Shown piece after piece: positions 21,049-22,918 of a DNA stretch of 64,000 bases. A program made the position numbers and the translations under genes. Numbering within the stretch: the first letter of the stretch is position 1; the number at the start of each line of letters is the position of its first letter. Under the pieces are notes generated by a model. The model made no database searches, was not told the origin of the DNA, and saw only the letters and a program-made list of their open reading frames with translations. Source of the stretch: an uncultured bacterium (lineage in GTDB: Bacteria > Patescibacteriota > Saccharimonadia > Saccharimonadales > Saccharimonadaceae); NCBI GenBank assembly GCA_903832635.1, contig CAILCF010000005.1:1-64000 (forward strand), written 5' to 3'.

Positions 21049-21204
21049 CTATATCTTTGCCCAATACTTATCTATCAACTTTTGGATATTTGGAGTCGGT
21101 TTTCGACAATCGCAATTTTTAAGATGTTCGATATGCCATTTTGCCCTTTTCGCTTCCGTAGCGTTGATGGGCATTTTGTTTTTTTCATGCCATTGCTTAT
21201 TCAT
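21049..21204 (-). CDS. 51-residue small Trp-His/Cys-rich protein
   Basis: A short ORF between hemolysin III and the GC-rich transcript. Key residues are WHEKNKMP near the start, an RAKWHIEHLKNCDCRK core and a C-terminal DKYWAK. The W-H-x-E-H and C-x-C arrangement looks like a small conserved, possibly metal-binding protein, but I cannot name it. A TATACT box (21216-21211) ends 6 nt before the ATG, the same leaderless arrangement as the neighbours. Its upstream region is shared with a divergent strong promoter. Confidence 0.65.
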   Translation of the reverse strand: MNKQWHEKNKMPINATEAKRAKWHIEHLKNCDCRKPTPNIQKLIDKYWAKI

Positions 21205-21225: not shown

Positions 21226-21254
21226 TTGACTAATAATTATGTTTGTGTTAATAT
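21226..21254 (+). promoter_or_regulatory. Near-consensus sigma-70 promoter of the GC-rich transcript
   Basis: TTGACT at 21226-21231, a 17-nt spacer, and TAATAT at 21249-21254. The expected RNA start is near 21261, at the edge of the GC-rich stretch. Confidence 0.7.
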
Positions 21255-21301
21255 ATTTGTTAATCTCAGGTGTTTGCCTGAGAAGCAAACAGGAGGTGCC
21301 A

Positions 21302-21385
21302 ATGGGCCCGCCCAATCGAGTTCGTCGCACCGGGATGAAAATGTTTTCCAGCACGACGATCGTGATCGGCATCAGCACGGCGTGA
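21302..21385 (+). CDS. Possible 27-residue peptide in GC-rich transcript
   Basis: An ATG lies 5 nt after a perfect AGGAGG. The peptide begins MGPPNRVRRTGMKMFSS, is basic at the N-terminus and hydrophobic at the C-terminus (IVIGISTA), and ends in TGA. It could be a leader peptide or a small membrane-active peptide. Evidence is only the SD, the promoter and the reading frame. Confidence 0.3.
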   Translation: MGPPNRVRRTGMKMFSSTTIVIGISTA

Positions 21386-21693
21386 CACGCCGCGACATCC
21401 CCCGGGCACTGACCCATCGACGGGTCATGTGATCGATGACAAGGAAGAACAATGCATTATACATGGTGTCCGTACTAGGTACGTTCTTCATCATCAAGCA
21501 CTTCCCCTATCGGAACCAGCCCCTGTTTCATCGGCAGTACCTCGAGCAGGTTGTCACCCGCTCGACTTGCCAACTAAGTGGCTCGCTCCCGCGGGTCACA
21601 GGAGCGGTGGAAGAAAGAGCGCCGAGTCTCGGCATCAAAGGGCCTTAGCCCAAAGACCCCGAGCTCCTCGGTTCCCACTTCACCACCGACTCC

Positions 21694-21727
21694 CCCGGCC
21701 GGTCCTCCTGTACGGAGACCGGCCGGG
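21694..21727 (+). terminator. Strong GC hairpin at the 3' end of the GC-rich transcript
   Basis: An 11-bp perfect stem, CCCGGCCGGTC (21694-21704) with GACCGGCCGGG (21717-21727). It is followed 13 nt later by a short T run (21739-21743) and then by a second terminator. The stem is far more stable than others in the window. Confidence 0.55.
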
Positions 21728-21745
21728 CATAACCCATGTTTTTAT

Positions 21746-21766
21746 GCCTATCTATTAGGCTTTTTT
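21746..21766 (+). terminator. Rho-independent terminator
   Basis: GCCTA-tctat-TAGGC followed by six T. It overlaps the last codons of the convergent bactofilin-like gene (stop at 21755-21757) and would end the GC-rich transcript. Confidence 0.6.
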
Positions 21767-22918
21767 AATACTCTTTTTTGCTACGATATTCGTACGTTCT
21801 AATAACTGTTTGCCGCGAGTCAGAATCATACCCATACCGAACAAATATGCGCCCAATAGAGTAAAGAATCCGATTATTGGGATGAAGTATGTTATTACAA
21901 GTATTCCTGTACCCAACGCCATTATCCCCAAAGGTTGTTTTGATTTAGGCATAATCAGATGGCCCAGCATATAACCGGCAAATGGTGTGGTCAGTAGCAT
22001 TACAACAAACCAAGCCAGTAGTGTCAAGAATGCCAGTGGCATCCCAATGAACGTAACTAGTAAGATGACAATTGATATTGGTATCAAGAAAGCCGCCAGT
22101 ATTCCTACCAGAATTGTCATTCCAGGTTTTTTCTTTGCTTTTTCAGTTGCTTCGGCAAATATCCTTGGGAATAATGCAACTAATACCAAGGATGTAACAA
22201 TCCAGGCAATCAAGCTATAAACAAACCATCCAAAGGCAAATGCCAGCGGTGCGTAATAATTTGTGTTGGCCGTTTCTTTAGGAGCGGTCCTGGTGACTGT
22301 CCCAGCAACTTTTCCACCATCGGCTATAACAGGATCGTTTTTGCTGGTATATTCGATGTTGCCACCAACTACACCGACCGGACCAATATTCAGATTTACA
22401 ACATATCCCTTAATGTTACCACCAATGTTTCCATTAACGTTTAAGTCTGTTGCACCAGCTACAATGTCACGTTTTATAACACCGTTTATGGTAACATCTG
22501 TGCTACCACCCAACAGGTCACGCCCAATTGAGGCGTTTTTGTCAATAACTAATGTCTGAGCACCAATTGTGGCGCTTCCGCTGACGGTACTATTTAAAGT
22601 AACAGTCTGCCCAGCCAAACGGATATCTCCGTTTATAATCCCAGTTACAAGAACGGTTTGACCAGCACAAAATACATCACCATTAATAGTTCCACTGATT
22701 GTCAGTGTCTGGCCAGCGCAATAAACGTCACCATTGACAGTTCCGGCAATATCAACATTGTTTCCGGCCACAAACAGCATACTGTTAACTGTTTCGTTTG
22801 TAGAAACCCCTACGCTGTCTCCTGCTTTGAAGCTTTGTGCACTTGCCAATCCGACTACAGCCAAAGCTGACACGAACACAAGGCACAAACTGAGGGCAAT
22901 TATTTTAATATTTTTCAT
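21755..22918 (-). CDS. Bactofilin-like beta-helix membrane protein
   Basis: A 387-residue protein with an N-terminal signal peptide ending near GLASAQS. A polymer-forming (bactofilin-type) right-handed beta-helix follows, made of short repeats such as AGQTLTISGTINGDVFC and GQTVTLNSTVSGSA (about residues 40-210). The second half has about four transmembrane helices (residues 230-370) and a basic tail. Exported bactofilin-domain proteins of this design may scaffold the cell envelope. The start is supported by GGGAGG 7 nt upstream. The 3' end overlaps a terminator of the opposite strand. Confidence 0.8.
   Translation of the reverse strand: MKNIKIIALSLCLVFVSALAVVGLASAQSFKAGDSVGVSTNETVNSMLFVAGNNVDIAGTVNGDVYCAGQTLTISGTINGDVFCAGQTVLVTGIINGDIRLAGQTVTLNSTVSGSATIGAQTLVIDKNASIGRDLLGGSTDVTINGVIKRDIVAGATDLNVNGNIGGNIKGYVVNLNIGPVGVVGGNIEYTSKNDPVIADGGKVAGTVTRTAPKETANTNYYAPLAFAFGWFVYSLIAWIVTSLVLVALFPRIFAEATEKAKKKPGMTILVGILAAFLIPISIVILLVTFIGMPLAFLTLLAWFVVMLLTTPFAGYMLGHLIMPKSKQPLGIMALGTGILVITYFIPIIGFFTLLGAYLFGMGMILTRGKQLLERTNIVAKKSIKKA

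Follow-up and report, generated by a model that had tools for sequence, protein, structure and literature searches.

A candidate gene for a large, structured and essentially noncoding RNA in a small lineage of Saccharibacteria

Large structured RNAs and a GC-rich intergenic block

OLE, GOLLD, ROOL and raiA are large orphan structured noncoding RNAs of bacteria. Here, we describe a block of ~510 nucleotides at positions 21226-21766 of the window, i.e. the 64-kb stretch of DNA that was analysed, which resembles these RNAs in its length of hundreds of nucleotides, its complex fold and a structure that is conserved without a conserved peptide. In contrast to them, it has no match in Rfam, is found in two species only and has no known associated partner gene. 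Likewise, the block is reminiscent of tmRNA in being structured, of similar size and equipped with an internal short ORF, whereas this ORF has its own Shine-Dalgarno (SD) sequence and AUG, and there is no match to the tmRNA model. The GC-IGR pipeline (PMC11109978) derives ncRNA candidates from long, GC-rich and structured intergenic regions, including motifs with few representatives; Saccharibacteria are not mentioned in the main text of that paper. The block was found by a logic shared with this pipeline. However, as it is not located upstream of a gene, it is not a riboswitch-type candidate like those obtained there. Our literature search retrieved no report on lineage-specific structured RNAs in candidate-phyla bacteria.

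The window belongs to a 236-kb contig of a genome of 793 kb that is 94% complete. The block has a GC content of 57% compared to 40% for the genome (means of 40.2% for the whole genome and 38% for the intergenic regions), and across positions 21300-21700 the value climbs from ~36% to 55-62%, in line with the GC-rich stretch of ~500 nucleotides reported in a first-pass annotation of this DNA. On its left side the block is flanked by the HlyIII gene (PF03006) and a gene of 51 amino acids (window 21052-21204, minus strand; MNKQWHEKNKMPINATEAKRAKWHIEHLKNCDCRKPT..), both divergent from the block; the latter gave no match in Pfam and is kept with coding periodicity in the related genome G003. The right neighbour encodes a bactofilin (PF04519) and is convergent with the block. 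In both species this gene comes next, and no gene on the same strand follows the block.

Further GC-rich stretches are present in this genome, several of them cassettes of radical-SAM and peptide genes. At G000:C5 ~86954-88471 (L062 2954-4471, minus strand), a high-GC radical-SAM gene adjoins a short gene for a Cys-containing peptide (..NACCGSAFSEQSHVA) together with a very strong terminator, and the locus looks like a RiPP cassette. At G000:C2 ~85247-86774 (L091 5247-6774, plus strand), the short peptide MKIIIPTKADLEKVGGKVALTQNSVGGCGCTSCECR is followed by a radical-SAM protein, which represents another RiPP-like cassette; a further one of this kind is apparently located at C2:77.9-79.6 kb. 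High GC by itself is therefore no marker of RNA genes in this genome. The case for a structured RNA in the block rests on constraint and shared structure rather than on composition.

Taken together, we consider the block to be probably the gene for an independently transcribed, structured and essentially noncoding RNA of ~507 nucleotides (~560 nucleotides in G003), which would occur in one small Saccharibacteria lineage, extend from a promoter to tandem terminators and probably act in trans. The best reading of the sequences is a new, narrowly distributed RNA that has no counterpart in the RNA-family library.

Transcription signals and shared RNA structure

The promoter TTGACT-17-TAATAT noted in the first-pass annotation was found exactly where it had been placed, just 5′ of the block on the plus strand (21226-21254; TTGACT at 21226-21231, TAATAT at 21249-21254), with a TG preceding the -10 element. 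In G003, TTGACT is retained and the -10 region reads GTTAAGATAT. An extended version of this promoter (~TATTGACTTATnATTACGTTTGTGnTAAnATA) recurs before unrelated genes throughout the Saccharibacteria family and order, e.g. at L004, L005, L027, L028 and L031, and likely represents a strong housekeeping promoter consensus. As judged from the -10 element, the predicted structured RNA of ~507 nucleotides would start at 21261 and end with the second terminator at 21767 (plus strand). The 11-bp GC stem and the T-tract terminator described previously were both located on the same strand. The stem, T1 (21694-21727), is built from the arms 21694-21704/21717-21727 and comprises 11 bp in both species despite a different sequence; in G003, a T run follows directly. 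The intrinsic terminator T2 (21746-21767), GCCTATCTATTAGGC-TTTTTT, extends into the final codons of the bactofilin gene, which is convergent. Hence, the block has sequence signals for its own promoter and terminator on one strand, as expected for an independently transcribed ncRNA.

The minimum free energy calculated for positions 21255-21775 is -208 kcal/mol compared to -165 +/- 6 kcal/mol for dinucleotide shuffles (z -6.8). Since the RNAalifold energy of the two sequences was dominated by the covariation bonus and did not discriminate, we employed shared base pairs, calculated as the product of the base-pair probabilities of the two species. On the plus strand, 40.5 shared pairs are expected, whereas 60 column shuffles yielded 2.5 +/- 2.3 (maximum 11.6) and the minus strand 14; alignments of coding sequences with a comparable level of identity gave 0.4-11.8. 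The shared structure is strand-specific, although many predicted pairs differ between the species or stay ambiguous.

The elements of this fold all lie on the plus strand. The 5′ hairpin P1 (21264-21283, 8 bp) is kept with 8/8 bp in G003, with one double and one single change (A-U>G-U and G-C>A-U). P2 (21378-21392) consists of shared pairs and presents the stop codon UGA of a short ORF, termed sORF a, at its loop. P3 (21410-21427) combines a conserved AUCGAC loop with a stem that is altered in G003, and P4 is part of the highly conserved stretch AAGGRAGRAC..ATGCAYTATANNTGGTGTCCGTAC (21441-21478), which also comprises a possible ORF of 8-10 codons. Further downstream, the 9-bp hairpin P5 (21578-21599) with a UCCC loop carries four changes that preserve pairing, one of them double and three one-sided. 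The long-range helix P6 (21601-21693; 21601-21604/21690-21693 and 21606-21610/21683-21687), which closes the 3′ domain, has a double change and a single one. The P5 loop could also form a pseudoknot with GGAG at 21601, but this pairing competes with P6 and is not part of the fold proposed here.

Pair-preserving changes relative to G003 are thus present in P1, P5, P6 and T1. When the partners within P5 and P6 were slid by 1-3 columns, the paired cells fell from 100% to 40-54%. As two sequences alone are known, the number of covarying pairs is low and formal tests of covariation are underpowered; accordingly, 106 of 500 shuffles reached the observed value. Secondary structure is conserved beyond the sequence at the moderate strength that two sequences afford, and the suggestion to search for covariation of the hairpins in relatives was rewarded by compensatory changes in one relative. 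With selection at the nucleotide level, shared structure on the plus strand and compensatory changes, the idea of a structured RNA with several hairpins is corroborated.

Conservation in G003 and searches for further copies

The block is conserved in one Saccharibacteria genome of the same genus, G003, at the same locus between HlyIII and bactofilin. The homologue has a length of 560 nucleotides and 59% GC, compared to 507 nucleotides and 57% GC here, and the two sequences are 68-73% identical along the whole length; both halves of the block align far above shuffles (Z of 16 and 11). In contrast, fourfold-degenerate sites of the flanking genes are identical at 33% (152/456) and hence saturated; this total rests on four genes with 26-38% each. 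The value for hemIII is invalid, as the slice taken from G003 was out of frame, and its single site leaves the total unaffected. Given this saturation, neutral DNA would no longer be alignable. The block is therefore subject to purifying selection, and both species have retained its elevated GC content.

Beyond the promoter and short chance stretches, blastn searches of the genus, family and order retrieved G003 alone, and the element is present in 2 of the 28 genomes of the genus. In G024, which belongs to the same genus, HlyIII adjoins a different gene and the element is absent. Matches confined to the promoter (L004, L005, L027, L028, L031 and others) were rejected as homologues, because the unrelated genes that follow them indicate a common promoter without homology. 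A covariance model of the 3′ domain, applied to 394 genomes of the family and 393 of the class, returned the two training genomes only. In both kinds of search, weak copies may have escaped detection owing to the stricter filters used for more than 40 genomes. A pattern derived from the second short ORF, sORF b, was scanned across GTDB and yielded G003 and four scattered matches in unrelated phyla, which by our own estimate is roughly what chance alone would produce; none was confirmed by the 3′-domain model. Among viral contigs, two patterns gave nothing, and one pattern of 18 nucleotides gave two chance-like matches that the model does not support.

The proposed Infernal/Rfam search assigned the block to no known family: in Rfam 15, nothing reached the gathering threshold for the whole block, and no plausible match appeared when the search was relaxed to E 10, the best sub-threshold matches (E 0.65-4) being far under the cut-offs. 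Elsewhere in the window, the ribosomal protein L10 leader (RF00557; 58775-58920, minus strand) scores above its gathering threshold. The same reduced genome has a SAM riboswitch (RF00162) at L079 15176-15275 (minus strand).

Short ORFs, alternative explanations and possible function

The ideal AGGAGG motif that had been reported after the first hairpins lies at 21291-21296. It is part of the SD-like sequence AGGAGGTG (21291-21304, plus strand, including the ATG at 21302), of which GGAGGTG and the ATG are kept in G003, and it is placed ~30 nucleotides into the predicted transcript. The ATG opens sORF a (21302-21385, plus strand), which has 27 codons here and 31 in G003. Oddly, its start, stop and frame persist in both species, but the peptide does not: identity by codon position amounts to 14, 16 and 21 of 26, i.e. 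the third position is the most conserved one, and 17 nonsynonymous codon changes contrast with 1 synonymous change. The second short ORF, sORF b, lies within the stretch 21441-21478, would encode the near-identical peptides MHYTWCPY and, in G003, MHYKWCPYKL, and coincides with the P4 hairpin. Across the block, mismatches are distributed over the three phases as 38/45/47 (p 0.42), indicating the absence of a 3-nt periodicity, whereas the adjacent gene of 51 amino acids, used as a control, displays a clear one (8/2/15 by codon position). The block thus lacks a coding signature, with sORF b being ambiguous, and the selection appears RNA-like rather than peptide-like. In line with the first-pass annotation, the short ORFs do have GC-ending codons; as peptides, however, they are not conserved.

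These data bear on the possibility that the block is an mRNA encoding one or two tiny peptides (27-31 and 8-10 amino acids) with a structured leader and trailer, comparable to the GC-rich peptide and radical-SAM cassettes of this genome. We regard this as unlikely. The conserved SD sequence and ATG would fit, as would one alignment in which all gaps within sORF a have lengths divisible by three and its stop is aligned; the excess of nonsynonymous changes and the lack of codon periodicity argue against it, and no maturase or transporter gene is adjacent. A peptide product is possible mainly for sORF b, the conservation of which is equally explained by P4. A different role for the ORF, in which ribosomes on sORF a select between folds and thereby decide on termination or processing, would account for the SD sequence and ORF next to hairpins and for the position of the sORF a stop codon within the loop of P2. 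Such a translation-coupled attenuator or riboregulator also draws on the competing 5′ hairpins of the first-pass annotation. Both can be drawn in the present sequence, but in contrast to the first hairpin the second one is not conserved, retaining 4 of 7 bp in G003, which leaves the switch idea unsupported. As no same-strand gene lies downstream in either species, a role as leader is excluded, and we consider attenuation very unlikely. The small-peptide mRNA with attenuator envisaged originally is accordingly weakened on both counts.

The contrast in composition and the presence of other GC-rich islands could likewise point to decayed or recently acquired high-GC DNA, e.g. from an actinobacterial host, or to an assembly chimera at the GC boundary, as had been considered. 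Both are contradicted by G003: purifying selection and a retained GC content at a shared locus, in a species that was assembled separately and is synonymously saturated relative to this one, exclude recent acquisition as well as a chimera, and no DNA similar to the block was found in phages or plasmids, the Actinobacteria being covered by the exact-pattern scan alone. We therefore hold this origin to be extremely improbable. Size, GC content and structure would also be compatible with a divergent universal RNA, i.e. tmRNA, RNase P RNA, SRP RNA or 6S RNA, and the models for small SRP RNA (RF00169) and 6S RNA found no match anywhere in the 94%-complete genome. SRP RNA may, however, require the large-SRP model or reside in the missing part of the genome. 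The models for tmRNA (RF00023) and RNase P RNA (RF00010) do not match the block, and both RNAs are encoded elsewhere (G000:C1:19421-19832 and C1:22593-22949, respectively). No Rfam model matches the block plausibly, and its presence in 2 of the 28 genomes of the genus is at odds with a universal RNA, a reading whose probability we rate as practically negligible.

For the structured, essentially noncoding RNA that we favour, transcription would start at ~21261 from the strong promoter and stop at one of the two tandem intrinsic terminators, T1 or T2. The transcript is predicted to fold into the 5′ capping hairpin P1, three small hairpins (P2-P4) and, towards the 3′ end, a domain formed by P5 and the long-range P6. 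As no same-strand gene follows that could be controlled, its most likely role is that of a stable RNA with a structural or regulatory function in trans, probably together with a protein. Binding of ribosomes to the 5′ part and their passage along it are suggested by the conserved SD-AUG and by an ORF in which the frame is kept and the sequence is not; the effect would then come about through position or folding rather than through the peptide. A bolder extension, which we regard as distinctly unlikely, is a new class of large structured RNAs in episymbiotic Saccharibacteria, on which ribosomes load at the conserved SD-AUG and translation forms part of folding or function while the peptide is irrelevant.

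Candidate-phyla bacteria have tiny genomes, and for a genome of ~800 kb an RNA of ~500 nucleotides that selection keeps at a single locus would be a considerable expense. Provided that it is expressed, the RNA would offer a defined regulatory or structural candidate for experiments in this host-dependent group.
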